A stretch of DNA of 64,000 nucleotides, from positions 62,001-126,000 of the forward strand of contig NZ_JXJO01000011.1 in NCBI RefSeq assembly GCF_000826655.1, in the 5' to 3' direction. The notes under the pieces are model-generated. The model saw only the letters and a program-made list of their open reading frames with translations. It did not search any database and was not told the origin of the DNA. Of this stretch, positions 15,705 to 64,000 are shown in pieces. Both the position numbers and the translations under genes were made by a program. Each line of letters starts with the position of its first letter. Position 1 is the first letter of the stretch. This DNA is from Psychroserpens damuponensis (GTDB lineage Bacteria > Bacteroidota > Bacteroidia > Flavobacteriales > Flavobacteriaceae).

Positions 15705-15745
15705 AACCTGCAAGGTTTTTATTAACCTTGTAGGTGTTTTATTAT
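15705..15745 (+). terminator. Terminator after the AhpD-like gene
   Basis: ACCTGCAAGGTT pairs with AACCTTGTAGGT across a short T-rich loop, with one mismatch, followed by GTTTTATT. Degenerate relatives of this arm sequence lie at 44697-44755 and 46079-46105, so it may also be part of a dispersed repeat family. Confidence 0.65.
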
Positions 15746-15875
15746 GTAGCTTTTATTTTTTTCTTCGGAAATTGGAGTTTTTCATACTTCCCTAACTAAA
15801 AACACCAGTTCACTCATTATTGGTTTTTAAAATTGTTGTCCTGATATAGATTTGAATCATCAAACCATCTATATC

Positions 15876-18722
15876 ATGACACAACTTCTACACAAAAATT
15901 ATCTTTTACTCTTCTTTGTTCTAATCACAGCGAGCCTATTTTCTCAAGAAGGCATTGTTTCTGGAACATTAAAATCACAAACCGATGGCTTACCACTTCC
16001 TGGAGTGAGCATCATTATAAAAGGAACCAAAACAGGTGTGCAAACAGATTTTGATGGCTATTATCAAATACCATGTCGTGTTGGACAGACTTTAGTTTAC
16101 AGTTTTGTAGGCATGAAAGCTCGCGAAGTTAGAGTCACTCCTCAATTATTTGATAGTCAATCTCATGACAACATGGTTGAAGAAGTGCCTGTAAAACCTA
16201 TAGAAAATGAAGCGTATAAAAAAGCCATCCAAAAAAAACATGATAACACCTTATATATTCCAAATTTAGAACAATCAAACCTTACCTATAATAAAGACAA
16301 CTATTTTCAATATGAAAGAATAAAACATATTGATATCAAAAAAGACAAGGTTGATATTACTTATTTTGATCCAGATATTTTCTTTGAGGTTGGCTATAAT
16401 ACGATTTTTGGTATTCAGTATTTTAAAGACAAAAATTTACCTCAACTTCAAAACACCTATGCACAAGGTGGAACTCTAAATGGAAATTTAACCTTTCAAG
16501 GTGCTGAAACCGGAAATCTATTTTCATATGGCCCAAAAATTAGTAATCTAGAGTTTGATGGCAGCAACTATGCTTACGATAATAACGGACAATTAGTTTC
16601 TGTGGGAGAAGGCAACGGAAATCCTGCTGTTAATTACGACAATTCAGTATTAAAAACAGCTATAAAAACGTCAAACAATTTGTTTTTTAATGTCTCTACA
16701 CAAAAAAGTAAAATAGAACTCAATTACACAAATACAACCTTAAAAGACGTTTTTAATAGCGAAAAAAGTAGTGGTAATGATCTAAAACTCTCATTTAAAA
16801 ATAGAAGGTCTTATCATCAAAAAGGATTAAATTGGTTGGGTTATGTGTCATTCGGAAATTATAAAAACAACCAACCTAACGTCAATGGGTTTTTAAATAA
16901 TGCTTTACTTAATTCTTGGGCTACACCTTCAACGTTTAGCAATGCACAAGGCAATCTACTTTCTAATAGTTCTCAACGCAGTTTTAATTCTAATTTTAAT
17001 AATCCTAATTGGCTTTTAGCTCACCATCAAAATACTGACAAGACAAACTATTTTATTGCTACGATTCAAAATGACATTAACATTTCCGAAGACATAAATG
17101 TAGAAACCAACCTGAGTTACACCTACAATAAAAACAGTCAAAACTTTGGATTACCAACAAACACTGTGGGTTTTGAAGATGGCTACCTCAGCTCAAAAGC
17201 TATTAAAACGAATGTATTTAATGCCTTGTTGAAATTTACTTTTGATAATAACAACTATAGTCCAAGAATTAAAGGTGTGTCTCAGTTTGATTTTTCATCA
17301 GAGCATATGCAATATGATTTTAATGAAGCTAATGGGTTTATGCCTTTTTCATTTGAAAACCCTGAATCTAATAATACTGTTAAAACGCAATTAAATCGTA
17401 CTAGTTTAAGATTGCTCAACTCTTGGACTTTTAATTTTAGTGAAGAAAGTATTGATATTATTGCAGCCAATAACGCTTACATATCATCACTACAGGATAA
17501 TAAATTGTTTTTACCATATTTAGAATTTAAAGTAGATGTGGCAGACTTAATTTACATTGATTTTTTAGACCAATTCTATGTCACTGCAACAACATCGTAT
17601 GATGTTAATGAGCCTCATTTATTTTACAATAATATGAGTCATAATAGTTTGCTATTAACTCCTGAGCAAAGTTTATCATACACTGCAAATAACGACTTAT
17701 TCTTAACTGAGAATTTACAACTTGAAGAAAAAAAACATTATGAATTTGATGCATCTATGAGGTTTTATCTTTTAAATTCAGGATTTAATTTTAAAGCTAC
17801 TTATTTTAATTCTGAAACTCAAGGATCTGTTTTTCCTGTACTTGAGAATAATGCCTTTAAACTTCAAAACACTGCAGATATTAGTAACAAAGGTTTTGAA
17901 ATGAGCCTTAACACGAGATTTTACCTCATTGATAAATTATATTACAAACCCAGTATTGTATTTTCAAAATCTAGAACCAGAGTTCAAAAATTATATAACG
18001 ATGCTCAAAACATTCCAATTGCTGGGTTTTCAACTGTATCTAAAAACCTTATAGTTGGTGAGCGAGCTGGTGTTATTGTAGGATCTGCATATACTAGAGA
18101 TGCTCAAAACAACATTGTTATTGATGATCAAGGATTTCCTTTAGTAAATGCTCAATCTAAAATTATTGGTGATCCTACACCAGATTTCAACTTAGGTTTT
18201 GAGAATAATTTCGAGTTTAAAAATTTTAATTTAAACCTTGTTTTAGACTTTCAAAAAGGAGGTGATGTTTGGAACGGCACCCAAAACACGCTTAATTACC
18301 TTGGGACGTCTCAACAATCTGCAAACGATAGAAACATCACAAATTTCATATTTCAAGGTGTTAATCAAAATGGTAATCCAAATACGATTCCTGTAGATTT
18401 TTACAACCCTGAAAATGATATTTCACAAAATAGGTTTGTACGCTACGGTTTTTCTGGTGTGGATGAAGATGCTATTGAAGATGGTAGTTATATCAATTTA
18501 AAATCGGTGTCGCTCTCATATACATTCAAACAAAAAAATAAAAACACATTTTTTAGGCAAATAGATATGAGCCTCTATGCCAATAACCTTATCACTTGGA
18601 CAGCTTATGAAGGTGCATCACCTTATAGAAATCTCTACGACTCGCCTTCTGGTCAAGCTTTAAACTTTTTTAATATGCCAATTACAAGTGAAGTTGGTTT
18701 TAAACTTAACGTAAAAATATAA
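15876..18722 (+). CDS. SusC/RagA-type outer-membrane barrel lacking its plug domain
   Basis: A 948-residue protein starting at ATG 15876 (the frame opens at TTG 15852 without a signal sequence). Residues 1-24 form a signal peptide ending LFSQ. Residues ~26-95 are a carboxypeptidase-D regulatory-like domain (LPLPGVSIIIKG, DFDGYYQI). A SusC protein would then show a plug of ~120 residues (EVVVxGYG ... GVIxITT). None is present; a ~70-residue linker joins directly to the barrel. SusC barrel landmarks follow: AQGGTLNGNL and LFSYGPKI early, GDPTPDFNLGFENNFEF, DFQKGGDVWNGTQN and the closing strand SEVGFKLNVKI. No susD gene is nearby. The next gene, 4 bases on, carries the missing plug. The residual function may be a docking or export channel (inference). 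Confidence 0.85.
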   Translation: MTQLLHKNYLLLFFVLITASLFSQEGIVSGTLKSQTDGLPLPGVSIIIKGTKTGVQTDFDGYYQIPCRVGQTLVYSFVGMKAREVRVTPQLFDSQSHDNMVEEVPVKPIENEAYKKAIQKKHDNTLYIPNLEQSNLTYNKDNYFQYERIKHIDIKKDKVDITYFDPDIFFEVGYNTIFGIQYFKDKNLPQLQNTYAQGGTLNGNLTFQGAETGNLFSYGPKISNLEFDGSNYAYDNNGQLVSVGEGNGNPAVNYDNSVLKTAIKTSNNLFFNVSTQKSKIELNYTNTTLKDVFNSEKSSGNDLKLSFKNRRSYHQKGLNWLGYVSFGNYKNNQPNVNGFLNNALLNSWATPSTFSNAQGNLLSNSSQRSFNSNFNNPNWLLAHHQNTDKTNYFIATIQNDINISEDINVETNLSYTYNKNSQNFGLPTNTVGFEDGYLSSKAIKTNVFNALLKFTFDNNNYSPRIKGVSQFDFSSEHMQYDFNEANGFMPFSFENPESNNTVKTQLNRTSLRLLNSWTFNFSEESIDIIAANNAYISSLQDNKLFLPYLEFKVDVADLIYIDFLDQFYVTATTSYDVNEPHLFYNNMSHNSLLLTPEQSLSYTANNDLFLTENLQLEEKKHYEFDASMRFYLLNSGFNFKATYFNSETQGSVFPVLENNAFKLQNTADISNKGFEMSLNTRFYLIDKLYYKPSIVFSKSRTRVQKLYNDAQNIPIAGFSTVSKNLIVGERAGVIVGSAYTRDAQNNIVIDDQGFPLVNAQSKIIGDPTPDFNLGFENNFEFKNFNLNLVLDFQKGGDVWNGTQNTLNYLGTSQQSANDRNITNFIFQGVNQNGNPNTIPVDFYNPENDISQNRFVRYGFSGVDEDAIEDGSYINLKSVSLSYTFKQKNKNTFFRQIDMSLYANNLITWTAYEGASPYRNLYDSPSGQALNFFNMPITSEVGFKLNVKI

Positions 18723-18726
18723 TGCT

Positions 18727-21700
18727 ATGAAAACGATAAAAAACAAGCTTCTATTTGTAATTCTAATATGCCTTTTAACAAGTACTTTAACTGCTTTTAA
18801 AAGTTCAAAAACGACTCCTGCTCCAATAGAAAAAATCTATACGCAAACCGATAGACCTTTCTATTTTCCAGGAGAAACCATTTGGTTTAAATCTTATGTG
18901 GTTTTACAAGACCATACGACTTCTCATATGAGTGACATTGTACATGCACAGCTCATCTCACCAAGAGGAACTGTAGTTAATTCTTTAAAATTAGCCGTAA
19001 AAGATGGTTATGTATATGGAGATTTTAATATTGATCCTAATTGGGTTGGTGGCATTTACACCTTGAAAGTATTTACCAATTGGATGCGAAATTTTGGTGA
19101 AGATACTTTTTTTACAAAACAAATTACCATTCAAAAAGTAGTAAAACCCAACTTACTACTAAACCTAAAATTTGAGAAAGAAGGGTATGGTAAAAACTCT
19201 CAAGTGATTGCTAATTTTGAAGCAAAAGATTTAGATAATAATCCGCTATCCAATAAAGATCTCACATTTGAGGTTGCCATAAAAGGTACAAAAATAAGCA
19301 CTCAAAACCTTACTACTAATACCTTCGGAAAAGCAACACCTACATTTACATTGCCTCAAGATTTAGAGTCGTCTGATGTTGTACTAAATGTTCTCATGTC
19401 GTACAAAGGCAGTACAGAGTCTATATCTCGAGCTGTTCCTGTTGTTTTAGACACTATTGATCTTCAGTTTTTTGCTGAAAGCGGACAAATAATCGCAGGT
19501 GTCACCAATACTGTCGCTTTTAAAGCCATTAATGAGTTTGGAAAACCTGTAGACGTCAGTGGAGATATCGTTAATGGAAAAGGTCAAACAGTAGCTAAAT
19601 TCTCTAGTTTTCATGACGGTATGGGAAGCATTAATATTTCCGCAGAAAAAGGAGAGCATTACGTCGCCAAATTAAAAACACCTTTTGTGTCTACACGAAT
19701 TGTAAAGCTGCCAAACGTTCAAAATAAAGGCACACGGTTTTTAGTAACAACGCGTGATTCTAAAGCAGAAATAAAATTATTTTCTACGGAAAAAGAGCCT
19801 TTATTTTTAGAAATATCTAATGCAACAGAGGTTTTATTAGAGAAGAAAATTTCAGCAGATAAAAAATTACTAAAGATAAACACCGAAGATTTTCCCATGG
19901 GAATCACAACATTTTCTATCAAAAATTCAACAAATGATATAGTTGCCGAACGTTTGGTTTTTGTCAATGCGCACAAAGAATTAAATATTGATATTGCTTT
20001 AGACAAAACCAATTATCAAACCCGAGAAAAGGTAAAACTTAGCATCACAACAACCGATTCAAACGGAAATCCATTACCTTCAAATCTATCTATTGCTGTG
20101 GCAGATAACAAACTACTATCCTTTGCAGATGATAAACAAGATCATATATTATCATATTTATTAATGTCTTCACAACTTAAAGGGAAAATTCATAAACCTA
20201 GTTTTTACTTTAATCCTGACGACAAAAAATCGGCCCAAGCCTTAGATTATGTAATGCTCACTCATGGTTGGAGAAGTCATTTAAAATATCAAAAAGTAGA
20301 TTTAAAAACGGCTCAATTTGCACCAGAACAACACAATAACCAAACTGGTGTTATTGTAGACAAAAAAGGAAACCCAACTACAGCTCACCTTTTATTAATG
20401 GATCAATCTGGCAATAAAGTGTTAGTATTTGATACTAAAGATGATGGATCGTTTTCATTCAAATTTGGAGATGAACGTTCACTCATTTTATTGGCTTATC
20501 GTGATGATGGTGAAACGGTTACCATTAGAACAAATACGCTAAAAAAAGGACAGTTAGCAAGACAAGTAAATGTTCAAAATAAAAGAACTATAAAAAAGAC
20601 CGAAGCATTTATAACCAAGGATAAATCACCTAGAGCAAGTGTTGAAGAAAAAGTAGCTGTGGCTTCAATAGACATGGAAGAGGATTTATCTGAATTAGAA
20701 TCGGTAGTCATTACAGGATATGCTGGCAGTGTTAATAGTAGTAGAGTAACAAGCTCTGTAGTCACAGTTAGTAGTGAGAGTATTCAAAATGTACCTGTTC
20801 ATACAATAGATCAATTATTACAAGGTCAAGTTGCAGGTGTACAAGTAACCAACGGTTCTGGACAACCAGGACAAAGTGCAACTATTGTTATAAGAGGTAG
20901 AAATAATCTAAATGGCGATACAGAGCCTTTGTTTATTGTTGATGGCGTTCCTGTAGATCAATCTACATTTAGAACCTTAAACTCATCAAATATTAAATCT
21001 ATGTCTGTTATAAAAGATGCTGCAGCTACTGCAATTTATGGAAATAGAGGAAGTGGAGGCGTTATTGTTATCTCAACAAACAACAGTTATTATATTAATA
21101 ATAATGGCAAGAAAAAACTCAATAATGCTAAATACAACAATTATGCTATTGAAGGTTTTTATTATAGAGCTCCTATTGGTATCTATGAGCCAAGACAGTT
21201 TTATATGCCAAAATATGTAGCTAATGATGTACCACAAGAGCGTACAGATTTTAGACAAACCATCTATTGGAATCCTGTAGTACAAACCGATGAAAATGGA
21301 AAGGCAGAACTAGAATTTTATAATAACGATGCCATTACCTCTTTTAAAATTTCTGCGGAAGGCATAAGCTATAATGGTAATTTAGGACGCGAACAGGAAA
21401 CTTACGCTACCAAAAAATTATTAAATGTAGATTTTAAAGCTCCAAATTATATGGTGTTAGAAGACACTGTTAGTCTTCCGGTTACAATTACCAATGAAAC
21501 TTCAGAAGCTATAGAAGCAGATTTAGAAATGTCATTACCCGAACATTTAAAACTTGCCGAAGGTTTTGACAAAAAAGTGCGTATTGAAGCACATAGCTCT
21601 ATATTAAAACCCATTTGTGTGATCCCAATTAAAACGGCCAAGACGACCACAATAGATATTTCAGTAAGCTCAAAAAATCATAATGATGTAATTAAAAAAG

Positions 21701-23310
21701 AAGTGACTGTATTAAGTCCGTATTTTCCATCAGAAACCTCCATTTCAGGATCAAAATCAAAAGCCGTAACATTTGATATTAATAGTGTTGTTGCTGGTAG
21801 TCTTCATGCTGAGTTTAATATTTATACAGATGTTGTTGGTGATGTTATGGATGGGATTGAATCTCTAATTAGAGCGCCACATGGTTGTTTTGAGCAAACC
21901 TCATCATCAACATACCCAAATATTATGGTGCTCCAATATCTTAAAGAATCTGGAAAAAGCAATCCGGAAATTGAAGCTAAAGCACTGGATTTTATTAAAA
22001 AAGGTTATAAACGTCTTATTAGCTTTGAAACTGCAAAAAACGGATTTGAATGGTTTGGAAACACACCTCCTCACGAAACCTTAACTGCTTACGGAGTTTT
22101 AGAATTCACAGAAATGAAAAGGGTTTATGATGGTGTTGACCAAAAAATGATTGATAGAACCGTTGATTGGCTCATGAGCAGAAAAGATAGTAAAGGCGGG
22201 TTTTTAAAAAGTAAAAGAGGCTATGATAGTTTTGCGAGCTCACCTGTTGACGTTGCCAATGCATATATCGTGTATGCCATTAGCGAGTCTGGTGTAGCTG
22301 CAAACATCAATTTAGAATATGAAACAGCTTTTAAAGATGCTTTAAAAACTAAGGATACTTACAAAATGGCAATGCTCACTTTAGCGAGTTACAATTTGGG
22401 TAAAACTAAAAATGCGCAACTCCTATTAAAAGAACTTAAACAAGCGATTTCTAATTTCGATTTCGAGAACCTTCCTGTAGAGCAAACTATTACAAGGTCC
22501 TACGGAAATGCTAAAAATATTGAAACTACAGCTTTTACAGTACTCGCTTTATTACGAGAAAACAAAATAGATCATACGTTAATCGCTAAAGGTATAGACC
22601 ATATAGTTAGTAAAAGAAGTCATAATCGATTTGGATCTACACAGTCTACAGCCATGGCTTTAAAAGCATTAATTGCATACACAGAACAGCAAAAAAAGAT
22701 GATGATTACAGACAATGATTCCGTAGAAATAAACATTAATGGTACTTCATTTACATCTAAACTAAAAATGACGAATAACGGTAAAATTACAATCGATGGT
22801 TTAGGCACTTACATAAAACAAGGTTCACAAAACGTAGCCATTACATTTAATAATGAAAACACAACGTTCCCTTATAGTTTAGTTATTGGTTGGGATAGTT
22901 ACACACCAGATTCGGCAAAAGAGAAGTTTCTAGATTTAAAAACAAGTATTGCAGAGACTAATTATAAAGTAGGAGATAATGTGAGCATGACTATAGATGT
23001 CACTAATTTAAAATATGACGGATTAGGGATGGTCACATCAATTATTGGAATTCCCTCAGGAACCACAGCGCAACCTTGGCAACTAAAAACCCTTTTAGAG
23101 CAAGAAAAAGTAGCTTACTATGAAATTTTTGATAACTACTTAGTTTTGTATTGGAGATCATTTGCTGCGAAAGAAACAAAAACGATTCGATTAGATCTTA
23201 AAGCAGATATTGCTGGCACTTATAAAGCTCCTGCAAGTACAGTGTATCCGTATTATGGCGACGAATTTAAAACCTGGATTACAGGAAACACAATTGACAT
23301 TTTGAATTAA
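18727..23310 (+). CDS. Thioester alpha-2-macroglobulin-like protein with embedded SusC-type plug domain
   Basis: A secreted 1527-residue protein. Signal peptide ~1-23, no lipobox. Residues ~34-540 are macroglobulin (MG) domains beginning IEKIYTQTDRPFYFPGETIW. Residues ~541-640 form a regulatory-like beta domain (GVIVDKKGNPTTAHLL). Residues ~655-790 are a TonB-receptor plug of SusC type: LESVVITGYAG, TIDQLLQGQVAGVQVTNGSG, IVIRGRNNLNG, PLFIVDGVPVD, MSVIKDAAATAIYGNRGS, GGVIVIST. The A2M domain follows (TIYWNPVVQTDENGKAEL, ~843). The thioester site is C1054-F-E-Q1057, then a helical thioester domain and a C-terminal receptor-like beta domain. Bacterial A2Ms trap proteases covalently through the Cys-Gln thioester. 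The plug is in frame and uninterrupted. It starts 4 bases after the plug-less barrel gene, so the two are almost surely one operon. Confidence 0.9.
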   Translation: MKTIKNKLLFVILICLLTSTLTAFKSSKTTPAPIEKIYTQTDRPFYFPGETIWFKSYVVLQDHTTSHMSDIVHAQLISPRGTVVNSLKLAVKDGYVYGDFNIDPNWVGGIYTLKVFTNWMRNFGEDTFFTKQITIQKVVKPNLLLNLKFEKEGYGKNSQVIANFEAKDLDNNPLSNKDLTFEVAIKGTKISTQNLTTNTFGKATPTFTLPQDLESSDVVLNVLMSYKGSTESISRAVPVVLDTIDLQFFAESGQIIAGVTNTVAFKAINEFGKPVDVSGDIVNGKGQTVAKFSSFHDGMGSINISAEKGEHYVAKLKTPFVSTRIVKLPNVQNKGTRFLVTTRDSKAEIKLFSTEKEPLFLEISNATEVLLEKKISADKKLLKINTEDFPMGITTFSIKNSTNDIVAERLVFVNAHKELNIDIALDKTNYQTREKVKLSITTTDSNGNPLPSNLSIAVADNKLLSFADDKQDHILSYLLMSSQLKGKIHKPSFYFNPDDKKSAQALDYVMLTHGWRSHLKYQKVDLKTAQFAPEQHNNQTGVIVDKKGNPTTAHLLLMDQSGNKVLVFDTKDDGSFSFKFGDERSLILLAYRDDGETVTIRTNTLKKGQLARQVNVQNKRTIKKTEAFITKDKSPRASVEEKVAVASIDMEEDLSELESVVITGYAGSVNSSRVTSSVVTVSSESIQNVPVHTIDQLLQGQVAGVQVTNGSGQPGQSATIVIRGRNNLNGDTEPLFIVDGVPVDQSTFRTLNSSNIKSMSVIKDAAATAIYGNRGSGGVIVISTNNSYYINNNGKKKLNNAKYNNYAIEGFYYRAPIGIYEPRQFYMPKYVANDVPQERTDFRQTIYWNPVVQTDENGKAELEFYNNDAITSFKISAEGISYNGNLGREQETYATKKLLNVDFKAPNYMVLEDTVSLPVTITNETSEAIEADLEMSLPEHLKLAEGFDKKVRIEAHSSILKPICVIPIKTAKTTTIDISVSSKNHNDVIKKEVTVLSPYFPSETSISGSKSKAVTFDINSVVAGSLHAEFNIYTDVVGDVMDGIESLIRAPHGCFEQTSSSTYPNIMVLQYLKESGKSNPEIEAKALDFIKKGYKRLISFETAKNGFEWFGNTPPHETLTAYGVLEFTEMKRVYDGVDQKMIDRTVDWLMSRKDSKGGFLKSKRGYDSFASSPVDVANAYIVYAISESGVAANINLEYETAFKDALKTKDTYKMAMLTLASYNLGKTKNAQLLLKELKQAISNFDFENLPVEQTITRSYGNAKNIETTAFTVLALLRENKIDHTLIAKGIDHIVSKRSHNRFGSTQSTAMALKALIAYTEQQKKMMITDNDSVEININGTSFTSKLKMTNNGKITIDGLGTYIKQGSQNVAITFNNENTTFPYSLVIGWDSYTPDSAKEKFLDLKTSIAETNYKVGDNVSMTIDVTNLKYDGLGMVTSIIGIPSGTTAQPWQLKTLLEQEKVAYYEIFDNYLVLYWRSFAAKETKTIRLDLKADIAGTYKAPASTVYPYYGDEFKTWITGNTIDILN

Positions 23311-23338: not shown

Positions 23339-23381
23339 AAACCTCTTCATTTTCGTTACTTCGGAAATGGGAGGTTTTTTT
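23339..23381 (+). terminator. Terminator after the macroglobulin gene
   Basis: AAACCTC at 23339-23345 pairs with GAGGTTT at 23371-23377, with an imperfect inner stem (TTCATTTT against AAATGG), then a run of T. The loop contains TTCGGAA. Confidence 0.65.
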
Positions 23382-25811: not shown

Positions 25812-26483
25812 TTATTTATTACCTCCAACAATAATCACAATTTCACCTTTTGGTGGTTTATTGGTATAATGTGCTAATACTTCTTTTGCAGTTCCTCTAA
25901 TGGTTTCTTCGTATAATTTTGTCAATTCTCGAGAGACAGATACTGGTCGTTCTTCTCCAAAATACTCACAAAAGTTGGTGAGTGTTTTTATTAATTTATG
26001 CGGACTTTCATAAAAGATAATAGTTCTTGTTTCTTCGGCAAGTAGTTTTAATCGTGTTTGTCGTCCCTTTTTTACAGGTAAAAACCCTTCAAACACAAAC
26101 TTATCGTTTGGCAATCCAGAATTTACTAACGCAGGAACAAAAGCCGTAGCTCCTGGTAAACAATCGACTTCAATATGGTGTTCAACACATGCTCTGGTTA
26201 ATAAAAAACCAGGATCTGAAATTGCTGGAGTTCCTGCATCACTAATGAGTGCAATTGCAATTCCGCTTTTTAGTTTTTGCACCAAATTATCTACCATTTT
26301 ATGCTCGTTGTGCATGTGATGGCTTTGCATTTGTGTAGTAATCTCGTAATGTTTCAAAAGTTTTCCAGAGGTACGTGTGTCTTCCGCTAAAATTAAATCG
26401 ACGTCTTTTAAAACATCAACAGCACGAAAAGTCATGTCTTTTAAATTTCCGATAGGTGTTGGTACAATAAAAAGTTTGCTCAT
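25812..26483 (-). CDS. rsmI: 16S rRNA (cytidine(1402)-2'-O)-methyltransferase RsmI
   Basis: A 223-residue SAM-dependent methyltransferase of the tetrapyrrole-methylase fold. The start SKLFIVPTPIGNLKDMTFRA is the hallmark of RsmI. ILAEDTRTS, LISDAGTPAISDPG and CLPGATAFVPALVNSGLP follow, with the tail RELTKLYEETIRGTA. It 2'-O-methylates C1402 in the decoding centre. Length is somewhat short (E. coli ~286), as is usual in Bacteroidota, where the C-terminal helical extension is reduced. It diverges from the large T9SS cargo gene. Confidence 0.96.
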   Translation of the reverse strand: MSKLFIVPTPIGNLKDMTFRAVDVLKDVDLILAEDTRTSGKLLKHYEITTQMQSHHMHNEHKMVDNLVQKLKSGIAIALISDAGTPAISDPGFLLTRACVEHHIEVDCLPGATAFVPALVNSGLPNDKFVFEGFLPVKKGRQTRLKLLAEETRTIIFYESPHKLIKTLTNFCEYFGEERPVSVSRELTKLYEETIRGTAKEVLAHYTNKPPKGEIVIIVGGNK

Positions 26484-26577
26484 TGGTAAGAAAATTTCAA
26501 TTCAAATTTACAATGTTTTCAATTATTTGACGCAATCATTACATTTTTTTAGCATCTTTATAGAAACTATCCGCTTT

Positions 26578-29500
26578 ATGATTAATAGATTAACCTGCTT
26601 TATATTTGTCTTTTTTTGCTGTGCTACACTAACTGCACAAACCACAGATTTATCAATTGTTACTCAAGCTCAAAGTACGGCAGGAACTGATATTTCACAA
26701 ATTGAAATTTTTGATGATTTTCAATACATAGTAACGATTATAAATTCGGGTAATGCCGTTACTAACGCCTCGTTTGAAATCACTATGGATGAAGGTTTAC
26801 AAAATCTAAGCCTTGCCAATATTAGCTCTCAAAATAATACTGGAGGCGCTTCTAATGCTAGCGGTTTTAATTTATCTACATTACATGTATTAACAGGAAC
26901 AGTTGCAAATTTACCTACAGACTCTAGTGTAGAAATAAAAATTGAAGTCACTGCACCTTCAACGGTTGGTGGTATTGCTATAGATGCAGTTATTTCGCCT
27001 CCAAATGGAACAGAAGATACTAACATTAGCAATAATCAATCCTTAATTTCTATTGATGTTATTGATGTAGATATCAATTTCTCTATCACTCATGAACAAT
27101 TAACTCCTGCTCCTGGCACTCCTATATCATCATGGAATTCTCAAGCAACTTATAGGTTTACAATTACTAATAATAGTGATATAGATTTTCCTGTAGAAGC
27201 CATAGAGTCACGGTTAACCTTATTGACCGATTTGGATTATGGTCGGCCTAATGTTCAACTTTTATCTGTAGAATGTATAGAAGCAACCAATGGCACACAA
27301 TGTCCTAATGTTGCTGGAATTTCAGGAAACCCGGTTTTATTAAGCGCCACTGCAAACCTATTAACATACTCTACACCACATGTTTATACTGCAGGTGGAT
27401 CTATTACTTTTGAAGTTGTATATCAATTTTTAGACCCATCTTGTGCTATAGAATTAAACCCAATAAATGTACAAAGTAGAGTAGAAATCACTTTGGATCA
27501 TACCAATTCTGGTAATAGTCTTTCTAACCCAGTAATTACAAATCTTTTAGAATCTGAATTATGCCAAACAACCGATGCTTGCATAGACACAATACAAACA
27601 GATCCAGACCCTTTAACTGCAGTCAATTGGAATGAAGAAGTCACTTTTGAAACTACCATTTGCAACAATGGACCTCTAGATGCTAATGTGTCATTTTTTC
27701 TGCAAAATTTAGCGCCTACAATAGAATGGAATATTTTATCTGTGGAATGCATAGGAACAACTGGAAGCATTTCTTGTGATGAAATTAATATTAGCATTAA
27801 TGACATATTTTGGGTAAGCGATGTATTTATAATGCCAGTAGATGCAACTGTTACCATGAGAACAATAGCAGTTTTTATAGAACCAGATTGCTCTCCAAGT
27901 ACTGAGCCCAATCAAGCACTTATTAGAAGTGGGATAAATGTTTTAGAGTCTGATATTTTAGATTCTAATATTATAAATAATACTCAAAACGATTATGTAT
28001 CATTACCTGCAACTTCGGCTTGTGAAACTGTAAATCTCAATGTTACTAAAACACAAATAAACCCAGTATTACCCAATGGAGGAACTCCTCAAAACCCAAC
28101 AGGTCAAGGAGAAATAACTTATGAAATAACCGTAAACAACCCAAGTGAATTAGATACATTTATTGAGTTACAAGAATTCATTCCTGGACCAGGAACTGTT
28201 CCTTTTACAGCAACATTGGTCGCTTTAAATTGTGTATCAACAACAGGAACAGCATCCTGCTTTGAACTTTTAAATACCAATATAGGAATCGAGTTTGATG
28301 GCATACCTCAAGGAGGAGAACCTGATACCTTTTGGGAAATTTTACCAGAAGACAATTGGAGTTTGCCTGCAAACAGCTCTGTTACTTTTGAGCTTACTAT
28401 ACTTTGGGATACAGATTGCTCTGTTAGTGCAATTCCTGTGACCAATACTGTAAATGTTAATAATGCCAATAGCAATGTAGATAGTGATTTCAATGATAAT
28501 GAAGCCGAAGTCGTTACCTTTTTTGCTCCTTGTGTAGATTTAGTCGTTCAAACGTTTCCTGAGTTTACTCAAGTCAACGTCAATCAAAATTTTGATTGGA
28601 TTATCGATATTACAAACAGTGAAAATAGCTCAAATGCTATAAACATCGACTTTGAAGACACCATAAATGAGGTGTTTAATATTACTGGAACGCCTACTTG
28701 TGTGGTTACTAACGGAAATGCAACATGTATTACCAATCTAGATTTCGCAACCAATAATGTTACTGGCACTATTGCAAATATGGATGCCGGCTCAACTATA
28801 AGAATTAGAATACCAGTTACTGCACCAAGTTTTGGAGGCGCTTACAATAATATTGCTGTAGCAACACCTGATGAAAATGATAATCGCGAAGTCTCACCAG
28901 AAACCAATACCTCAATTAGTAATATTCAAGTGGTTGCTCCTACACTAATAAAAAGTTATAATCCTACAACAATAACAATTGGAGAAGAAAGTACATTAAC
29001 TTTTACGGTAAATAATTTACCTGATAATTCATCACAAAGTAACATTTCATTTACAGATGTTTTCCCTTCGGAAATTACTATAACTTCACAACCGCAATGG
29101 GTTTCACAAAACGGCTGTACGGCAACATTTATTGGCACAACTGGTGATAATTTTGCAGGAGTTTCAAATTTGATATTTCCGGAAGGTGTAACTTCATGTT
29201 CGTTTAGTGTTGTTGTGACATCAAACAGTCCTGGTATTTACCTCAACGACACCAATAATTTTGAAAATCAAAATAATATAGACACGTCTCAAACCAATGC
29301 AACTTTAACCGTTCTAGATGATGAATCTAATGTGGATATCGAAATTCTAAAAAATGTCTCTCCTCAAGAAGCTTCTATTGGTGATCAAGTAACGTTTCAA
29401 ATTACGGCTACTAATCTAGGTACAACCATAGCAACAGATATTGAAATTTTAGATATGTTTCCTAATGGGATGGATATTGTGTCTGCGACGGTTTCCGAAG

Positions 29501-29973
29501 GACAATTTAATAACACAACTTTTACCTGGACCATTGATGCATTGTCGAGCAATCAATTTGAAACTTTAACCATTGTTGCTCAAATAACTTCAAGTACAGA
29601 ACTTTTAAACGTGGCACAATTACTCACTTTAAATGAACCAGATAGAGATGCTACAAATAATATGGACGATGCTGAGGTTATAGTAGATAATTGTTTTTAT
29701 GTCACAGATGGACTATCACCAAATAACGACGGACTTAATGACACCTTTTATATAGAATGTATTAATGATTACCCAGGCAATACCATAAAAATTTATAATA
29801 GATATGGTGTTCAAGTCTATGAAAGTAGTAATTATCAAAACGATTGGGACGGAACACCAAATATGGGAATTCCATCAACATCAGAAATACTTCCTGTTGG
29901 AACTTATTTTTACATACTCGATCTAAATACTGGAGCAAAACCATTAATTGGTTGGTTGTACCTCAATTATTAG
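26578..29973 (+). CDS. Large secreted DUF11-repeat protein with T9SS type B sorting domain
   Basis: A secreted 1131-residue protein. The frame opens at 26377, but ATG 26578 gives the signal peptide MINRLTCFIFVFFCCATLTAQ. It contains at least six related beta-sandwich repeats of DUF11/conserved-repeat type, seen as DLSIVTQAQS, VNLNVTKTQINP, VDLVVQTFPEF, TLIKSYNPTTITIGE and VDIEILKNVSPQEASIGD, each with VTFxxxxxN-type strands. The last ~90 residues are a gliding-motility-associated (CHU_C) type B sorting domain: YVTDGLSPNNDGLNDTF, IKIYNRYGVQVYES, LPVGTYFYILDL. The likely role is an adhesin or surface-layer protein exported by T9SS; the ligand is unknown. It is monocistronic. Confidence 0.88.
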   Translation: MINRLTCFIFVFFCCATLTAQTTDLSIVTQAQSTAGTDISQIEIFDDFQYIVTIINSGNAVTNASFEITMDEGLQNLSLANISSQNNTGGASNASGFNLSTLHVLTGTVANLPTDSSVEIKIEVTAPSTVGGIAIDAVISPPNGTEDTNISNNQSLISIDVIDVDINFSITHEQLTPAPGTPISSWNSQATYRFTITNNSDIDFPVEAIESRLTLLTDLDYGRPNVQLLSVECIEATNGTQCPNVAGISGNPVLLSATANLLTYSTPHVYTAGGSITFEVVYQFLDPSCAIELNPINVQSRVEITLDHTNSGNSLSNPVITNLLESELCQTTDACIDTIQTDPDPLTAVNWNEEVTFETTICNNGPLDANVSFFLQNLAPTIEWNILSVECIGTTGSISCDEINISINDIFWVSDVFIMPVDATVTMRTIAVFIEPDCSPSTEPNQALIRSGINVLESDILDSNIINNTQNDYVSLPATSACETVNLNVTKTQINPVLPNGGTPQNPTGQGEITYEITVNNPSELDTFIELQEFIPGPGTVPFTATLVALNCVSTTGTASCFELLNTNIGIEFDGIPQGGEPDTFWEILPEDNWSLPANSSVTFELTILWDTDCSVSAIPVTNTVNVNNANSNVDSDFNDNEAEVVTFFAPCVDLVVQTFPEFTQVNVNQNFDWIIDITNSENSSNAINIDFEDTINEVFNITGTPTCVVTNGNATCITNLDFATNNVTGTIANMDAGSTIRIRIPVTAPSFGGAYNNIAVATPDENDNREVSPETNTSISNIQVVAPTLIKSYNPTTITIGEESTLTFTVNNLPDNSSQSNISFTDVFPSEITITSQPQWVSQNGCTATFIGTTGDNFAGVSNLIFPEGVTSCSFSVVVTSNSPGIYLNDTNNFENQNNIDTSQTNATLTVLDDESNVDIEILKNVSPQEASIGDQVTFQITATNLGTTIATDIEILDMFPNGMDIVSATVSEGQFNNTTFTWTIDALSSNQFETLTIVAQITSSTELLNVAQLLTLNEPDRDATNNMDDAEVIVDNCFYVTDGLSPNNDGLNDTFYIECINDYPGNTIKIYNRYGVQVYESSNYQNDWDGTPNMGIPSTSEILPVGTYFYILDLNTGAKPLIGWLYLNY

Positions 29974-63590: not shown

Positions 63591-64000
63591 ATGAAAACAA
63601 AAATCAGTCTATTGTTGATGCTGTTTGTTTCAATTTGCACTATGGCACAGCAAATTGAAATTAATGGTATTGTAACGAGTAAAAGTGATGGAATACCTTT
63701 ACCTGGAGTAAGTATTATAATTAAAGGGACAAGCACAGGTACGTCTTCCGATTTTGACGGTAATTACTCCTTATTAGTAAATAAAGGAGATCAAATAGAG
63801 TACAGTTATCTAGGTTTTGAGACAACAACCATTACAGTTAAAGATGAACTAAAAATTGATGTTGCACTAGTTGATGATATAGCAAGTTTAAATGAGGTTG
63901 TTGTAATTGGTTATGGGACTCAAAAACGTAAAGAAGTAACTGGCGCTATTGCTAGTGTTTCAGGAGCTGAAATAACTAAACAACCTGCAGTTAATGCGCT
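63591..64000 (+). CDS. SusC/RagA-family TonB-linked outer membrane protein, N-terminal part
   Basis: The first 136 codons of a gene that runs off the right edge. Signal peptide ~1-20 (ending CTMAQ). The CarboxypepD_reg domain is seen as NGIVTSKSDGIPLPGVSIIIKGTSTGTSSDFDGNYSL. The TonB-box-like linker and the plug start appear as LNEVVVIGYGTQKRKEVTGAI. It is a normal SusC, with plug, in contrast to the barrel at 15876. A susD partner is expected beyond the window. It probably takes up a carbohydrate under control of the regulator before it. Confidence 0.92.
   Translation, partial: MKTKISLLLMLFVSICTMAQQIEINGIVTSKSDGIPLPGVSIIIKGTSTGTSSDFDGNYSLLVNKGDQIEYSYLGFETTTITVKDELKIDVALVDDIASLNEVVVIGYGTQKRKEVTGAIASVSGAEITKQPAVNA

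Follow-up and report, generated by a model that had tools for sequence, protein, structure and literature searches.

A plugless SusC-type barrel and a plug-bearing thioester macroglobulin form a conserved gene pair in Bacteroidota

Here we describe two adjacent genes of Psychroserpens damuponensis that divide between them the parts of a SusC-type TonB-dependent receptor, one encoding a barrel without a plug and the other a thioester macroglobulin that carries a plug. The pair lies in a 64,000-nucleotide stretch of DNA (contig NZ_JXJO01000011.1, positions 62,001 to 126,000; referred to here as the window) and comprises the barrel gene P0001 (15876–18722, plus strand, ATG at 15876; 948 amino acids) and the macroglobulin gene P0002 (18727–23310, plus strand; an open reading frame (ORF) of 1527 amino acids), whose ATG follows the P0001 stop after a gap of 4 bases, in agreement with the ORFs and spacing given by an earlier sequence-only reading of the window. 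The split is conserved among relatives, the plug lies between the N-terminal part of the macroglobulin and its A2M domain, and the thioester motif is intact. TonB receptors are described as single chains that include both plug and barrel, and macroglobulins as having a free bait segment; the conserved pair departs from both schemes at once, and in a complementary way. We see an even chance that the two proteins form a split TonB-dependent receptor, in which the plug docks the macroglobulin under the barrel and, with its linkers, serves as a trigger.

Domain make-up of the two proteins

P0001 consists of a likely signal peptide, a CarboxypepD_reg-like domain (residues 28–90), a linker to about residue 165 and a 22-strand SusC-type barrel from about 169 to 947; an alternative TTG start at 15852 would add 8 amino acids. 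Pfam returned only CarbopepD_reg_2 (28–90) and CarboxypepD_reg, and no match to Plug at E<=1, which confirms the earlier view that the N-terminal domain is followed by a barrel with no plug. Against the NCBIfam SusC model TIGR04056 (981 positions), the best stretch of P0001 covered positions 650–980. An AlphaFold2 model built from 79 sequences (pLDDT 89.6, pTM 0.79) contains 22 long strands by manual count of the secondary structure, and a short linker joins the N-terminal domain to the barrel, parts of it (residues 95–111 and 119–129) being of low confidence. In Foldseek comparisons the model groups with SusC proteins, the nearest solved fold being SusC BT2264 (5fq6, TMq 0.67), and P0001 is thus predicted to be a 22-strand barrel of SusC fold and TonB-dependent transporter type. 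The single-chain plug that characterizes SusC-type transporters was found in none of 79 barrels, namely that of the window, the 75 from the species survey described below and three more (Pfam Plug at E<=0.1), and we therefore rejected a hidden plug inside the barrel protein. The ordinary SusC gene at 63591, which had been proposed as an internal control, behaved as one: CarbopepD_reg_2 (24–105), Plug (113–218) and a barrel match lie in a single chain of 1032 amino acids.

The missing part is found in P0002, where Pfam identified MG2 (36–119), Plug (673–779, E 1.4e-17), A2M (845–934) and the thioester domain TED (1032–1318), with bMG10 and a CarboxypepD_reg-like part below threshold. The plug segment spans residues ~645–785 (20659–21081, plus strand), with the Pfam Plug match at its core. 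TIGR04056 matched P0002 at model positions 61–221, so that P0001 and P0002 cover complementary parts of the single-chain SusC model. The SusC signature TIGR04057 scored 43.6 bits on residues 756–784, just below its cut-off of 46.2, and exceeded the cut-off in the relatives L139 and L121. In a sequence comparison with the PDB, the plug segment matched RagA and SusC proteins, and LESVVITGYAG, which lies within it, aligned with solved SusC proteins in their pre-plug part; we take a pre-plug stretch of this kind to be the site of the TonB box. By these matches, the pair includes a SusC-type plug.

The remainder of P0002 is of A2M type, as the order of macroglobulin (MG), A2M and TED domains was recovered by Pfam, by PDB profile comparison and by Foldseek. 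The C-terminal half aligned with human A2M, C3 and other complement proteins, and CD109. The motif GCFEQ (residues 1053–1057, with C1054 and Q1057; 21883–21897, plus strand) conforms to the CXEQ of type I thioesters and is identical in 78/78 and 94/94 homologs (two overlapping sets, the 94 being the paired homologs). Both the plug signature and the Cys-Phe-Glu-Gln thioester at 1054–1057 that the sequence-only reading had placed in this protein are therefore present. Beyond the plug, a stretch conserved among the 94 paired homologs (FYxPxY...ERTDFRxTIYWNP, residues ~821–850; 21187–21276, plus strand) has an end that is also common to plug-free proteins, and its position, together with the parts of PMC9352918 that treat human A2M, suggests that it likely corresponds to the alpha'NT end of the bait region. 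A structural model of residues 331–1527 (78 rows; pLDDT 76.5, pTM 0.56) is closer in Foldseek to native A2M-type structures (TMq 0.42–0.46) than to activated ones (0.22–0.25). By fold, P0002 matches bacterial and metazoan A2M kinds alike. By sequence, metazoan A2M, CD109 and complement are closer to its A2M part than the A2Ms of E. coli and Salmonella are; no bacterial A2M occurs among the 53 PDB sequence hits of P0002, nor among the 60 listed of 67 profile hits.

Domain order and comparison with plug-free orthologs indicate that the plug occupies the position held by the bait region in other macroglobulins, a point absent from the sequence-only reading, and on the same grounds it probably splits MG6. 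The stretch from the N-terminal MG part to the A2M domain has a median length of 229 residues in 60 plug-free orthologs and measures ~298 residues in P0002, where it contains the CarboxypepD_reg-like part, a linker, the plug, a second linker and then the conserved stretch. All three plug-free orthologs that were read at the place of the plug (L138, L200 and L223) have a charged linker there, which might resemble a bait region; L138 has two CarboxypepD_reg domains by Pfam, and L200 has one by eye. The plug is at this position in 78/78 homologs, yet poorly conserved linkers persist on either side of it. They are the least conserved of 12 segments (mean majority fraction 0.34 and 0.36), and one runs for ~67 residues with pLDDT below 50. 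Conservation of the plug as a whole is middling (0.54), and its signature residues are conserved.

Conservation of the pair and plug-free orthologs

The pair recurs well beyond P. damuponensis. Among 149 Flavobacteriaceae genomes, 8 (that of P. damuponensis included) hold a near full-length A2M relative with at least 37% identity over the query part, and a plugless barrel lies directly upstream in 8/8. A scan of an 84,980-species collection confirmed 229 relatives, of which the best 80 were kept, and these place the pair in Flavobacteriaceae, Chitinophaga, Niastella, Xanthocytophaga and a Saprospiraceae metagenome-assembled genome, among others. Plug and TED share one ORF in 78 of these 80 loci and in the other 2 are split over two ORFs, of which the first holds the plug. 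A barrel lies upstream on the same strand in 75, the remaining 5 having no upstream ORF on the contig. The gap between barrel and A2M is 3–5 bases in 56 of the 75, a recognised N-terminal domain is missing in 14 of the barrels, and a plug profile matched none of the 75. The Pfam Plug domain, absent from the barrels as noted above, is present in 78/78 of the A2Ms. NCBIfam showed the split again in three more distant pairs or barrels; for example, in the Xanthocytophaga locus L121 the best stretch of the barrel covers TIGR04056 positions 190–980 and the A2M covers positions 70–205 (of 981).

In the family of genome G352 (family f2), which is presumably Weeksellaceae-like, the A2M is present in 15/148 genomes, each of which also has the plugless barrel. 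In 10/15 of these loci the pair is preceded, directly or past one VWA gene, by a protein with a further plug-like segment, recognised by a plug profile (L139:360-10565; L162–L170). The L139 example has, by eye, an anti-sigma-like start and one transmembrane-like stretch, and Pfam found Plug in 3 of the 5 proteins of this kind that were scanned, each of the three having VWA domains. An ORF of 171–174 amino acids stands before the plug-like protein in 8/10; Pfam identified that of L139, the single case tested, as an ECF sigma factor. In two other families, that of G277 gave 1/9 genomes matched, namely G277 itself, and that of G391 gave 0/200, a search that shows nothing by itself.

Taken over all surveys, 102 loci carry a plug-bearing A2M, 97 of them with upstream DNA, and an adjacent same-strand barrel is present in 96 of these 97. 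The neighbouring pair that the sequence-only reading had wished to see sought in other genomes is thus the rule, and the pairing is beyond local chance. Chance or annotation error as its source was rejected, as the same gene order recurs across the five named groups and family f2.

Plug-free orthologs serve as natural controls. When two candidates per genome were scored in 395 genomes sampled from the class, 64 genomes had a match, 62 of them new, and all 62 loci were fetched: 60 are plug-free, one (L233) has plug and barrel, and one (L243) has a plug with no barrel beside it. Together with L138 from a phylum sample, this gives 61 plug-free orthologs, two of which have no upstream DNA. No barrel of this type occurs in the fetched regions of the 58 plug-free loci that have an upstream ORF. 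A whole-genome barrel search of 63 genomes (up to 13 candidates per genome) gave 30 matches, comprising one full-length plugless barrel in the genome of L233, 28 in frames of more than 1000 amino acids, the length of an ordinary SusC or more, and one fragment of 327 amino acids; no full-length plugless barrel was found among the candidates scored in the genomes of the 61 plug-free orthologs. Moreover, in the phylum sample (395 genomes, two candidates per genome), full-length plugless-barrel matches, running from model start to end, were confined to the four genomes with a plug-bearing A2M.

At the locus itself, terminator-like hairpins stand ahead of the pair (15706–15735, plus strand) and past it (23346–23371, plus strand), and would delimit a two-gene unit of P0001 and P0002; the evidence is weak, the consensus scan having found 5 hairpins against 3.7 expected by chance. 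A promoter scan was uninformative (48 sites against 36 expected). The flanking ORFs (253 and 190 amino acids) are AhpD-like and uracil-DNA-glycosylase-like as judged by eye, and no SusD-sized gene directly adjoins the pair, although neighbours received no family search here or in relatives. Further downstream, a large ORF (26377–29973) has many repeat-like stretches and, by eye and without a search, a C-terminus like the Bacteroidota gliding-motility C-terminal domain.

A proposed trap under the barrel and its alternatives

The plugs of solved TonB-dependent transporters (TBDTs) enter from the periplasmic side and have both ends on that side. The MG and thioester domains of P0002 flank the plug and should therefore be periplasmic as well, and the second plug of family f2 would also enter from that side. 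We infer docking in trans and the periplasmic side from the gene pattern, and put forward TonB coupling, the trigger and the target as conjecture. In the proposed mechanism, P0001 would be inserted empty in the outer membrane and P0002 exported to the periplasm, where its plug would be pushed into the barrel from below, with the MG ring and thioester domain hanging at the periplasmic mouth of the barrel; a plug of FhuA made separately can reportedly work with its barrel. The plug with its linkers would then act as a trigger, broken by something that passes through or acts at the barrel; this could be a protease, or else a ligand that causes TonB to extract the plug and so exposes it to cutting. 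After the break, the alpha'NT equivalent would retract, the TED would swing out and the thioester would bond covalently to the intruder. Given its place at the bait position, the plug may fire the thioester when it is cut. Three papers bear on these steps: about half of the BtuB plug unfolds when TonB pulls on it (PMC5413942), in human A2M the bait region's end threads a channel and its retraction once cut triggers collapse (PMC9352918), and in E. coli A2M the thioester fires when the bait is cut or untethered and released (PMC4498604). More tentatively, and we would sooner doubt than assert it, TonB gating and thioester chemistry could make up one device, the plug being the gate of an outer-membrane channel as well as the bait of a suicide trap, so that anything opening or attacking the channel would be caught covalently on the periplasmic side; the second plug of family f2 could then fill barrels emptied by spent traps and report their loss.

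Several points weigh against a docked plug that serves as trigger. The plug is of low confidence in the P0002 model (pLDDT about 36–71 by ten-residue block), and the actual bait could be the low-confidence, poorly conserved stretch before it (residues ~612–678). Elsewhere in Bacteroidota, plug modules are found in proteins that have no plugless barrel beside them, as well as in small proteins and in VWA proteins. According to parts of PMC9352918, the trigger of human A2M needs a chain break and not mere stretching, so TonB pulling alone should not fire the thioester. The plug-bearing A2M of L243 (L243:1-4403) lies on a contig of 7175 bases with no neighbouring barrel, and the barrel was not found elsewhere in that fragmented genome; the locus is perhaps an intermediate or an assembly gap. 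In addition, a quick A2M tree of 85 rows (50 plug, 34 plug-free and 1 outgroup, from 158: 96, 61 and 1) needs about three changes of plug state, so the association represents many loci and few independent events; loss of the plug in one large clade is favoured, with the root unsure in this quick tree with its long-branch outgroup. Finally, in a distance-correlation test of 94 pairs with control for the rest of the A2M, which is weak for windows of 130 residues, the plug window correlated with the barrel at r 0.65, while other A2M windows reached 0.92, and its partial r of 0.25 was mid-range; plug-barrel coevolution beyond that of the rest of the A2M was not detected. The correlation of 0.65 is as if plugs had been exchanged with other SusC genes. 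In the same data most A2M windows track barrel distances at r >0.8, the values for parts of the TED match the low one of the plug, and the highest partial values belong to the N-terminal MG windows and residues 831–995.

The plug could instead be an anchor only, P0002 being an ordinary periplasmic protease trap docked to the outer membrane with a flexible linker as bait, and the barrel transporting nothing. The poor conservation of the plug-flanking linkers and the low pLDDT of ~612–678 speak for this view, as does the statement in a portion of PMC4498604 that E. coli A2M is periplasmic and anchored to the inner membrane. A lipobox-like motif occurs in 1/78 plug-bearing A2Ms, which does not discriminate, because plug-free A2Ms rarely have one too (3/60). 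We consider an anchor alone unlikely, as the plug's signature residues are conserved beyond what an anchor needs, middling though the whole plug is, and an entire 22-strand barrel is costly for that purpose. It is quite improbable, in our judgement, that the pair is a true importer, in which a substrate enters by way of the split receptor and the TED couples to this cargo in the periplasm, holding or ratcheting it for nutrition and not defence: no SusD-sized gene directly adjoins the window pair, and thioester coupling spends one protein per event, which would be wasteful, even though the nearest solved barrel is the SusC protein BT2264, the plug and pre-plug stretch align with SusC importers, and plug-bearing close relatives of the barrel (L173, L174 and L175) resemble ordinary SusC genes in size and domains.

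A very low probability likewise attaches to the idea that the plug is a mobile Bacteroidota module with some other binding role, the genes being neighbours by descent and the barrel alone an open or self-closed pore. Plugs or half-plugs in MG proteins without TED, in VWA proteins and in one small protein would fit it, as would L243 and the unremarkable plug in the distance test, but in the 94 complete pairs compared the plug supplies exactly the part missing from its neighbour, and the 61 plug-free orthologs were not seen with such a barrel. Least probable of all is an A2M at the cell surface, reached through the barrel or by another route, with the plug closing the barrel from outside. Parts of PMC6434023 report that the Myxococcus TBDT Oar is needed for secretion of the protease PopC, which lends this route some precedent; set against it are the periplasmic plug ends of solved TBDTs, the absence of a Por_Secre_tail match in P0002 by Pfam, and the second plug-like segment of family f2, whose protein has, by eye, an anti-sigma-like start and a single transmembrane-like stretch and would thus bring it in from the periplasmic side. 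The sequence-only reading had the plug act in trans to anchor or gate a surface protease trap. A plug in trans is supported by the complementary SusC coverage, the lack of a Plug hit in all 79 barrels scanned, the conserved adjacency across Bacteroidota and the failure to see such a barrel beside the 61 plug-free orthologs; anchoring may follow from this pattern, and the surface location is unlikely.

If docking holds true, the pair would be a natural split receptor, useful for studying how plugs enter and leave barrels. It would also fix a complement-like thioester protein beneath a pore of the outer membrane, a kind of envelope defence or capture undescribed in the open-access literature that we found, which likewise contains no description of a macroglobulin-plug and plugless-barrel pair.

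Relation to known systems and other plug proteins

All parts of the pair belong to known families, and what appears to be new is a barrel without its plug beside a macroglobulin that carries one. Plug modules occur in other settings as well. The earlier statement that MG proteins with plugs exist in Bacteroidota was right, these being short TED-less proteins with partial or undetected plugs: they measure 780–960 amino acids, some 1200–1340, have no plugless barrel adjoining, and among 10 scanned the Pfam Plug match was partial or missing in all (3 over the cut-off, 3 below and 4 none). The loci L038–L049 hold such TED-less MG proteins, some in tandem arrays of two or three, whose plugs are partial, weak or undetected, again with no plugless barrel adjoining. 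A single chain of 1623 amino acids (G1177; L247:6408-11279) runs CarboxypepD_reg, VIT, VWA, plug and SusC barrel, an ITIH-like module being inserted ahead of the plug in a related barrel. A 156-amino-acid protein with two half-plug repeats (G368; L142:2623-3093) lies just upstream of a barrel.

The short MG and plug proteins resemble P0002 in their MG ring region and plug-like segment, and stop ~50 residues into the region that in P0002 comes after the plug. With SusC/RagA transporters (TIGR04056; BT2264, BT1763, RagA) the pair shares the 22-strand barrel, the CarboxypepD_reg-like N-terminal domain and the SusC-type plug, but its plug and pre-plug stretch are in a separate protein, and no SusD-sized gene directly adjoins the window pair. 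Bacterial type I A2Ms (E. coli ECAM/YfhM, Salmonella SaA2M) have the same MG, A2M and TED domains with CXEQ and a likely periplasmic location, and the ECAM gene is, in a passage of PMC4498604, often in an operon with pbpC; P0002 differs in having a plug at the bait position and in being paired with a barrel. Complement C3 and human A2M, like P0002, have an insert just before the A2M-domain part, a conserved stretch after it and a thioester in the TED, but in P0002 the insert holds a TonB plug in place of a disordered bait or an ANA domain.

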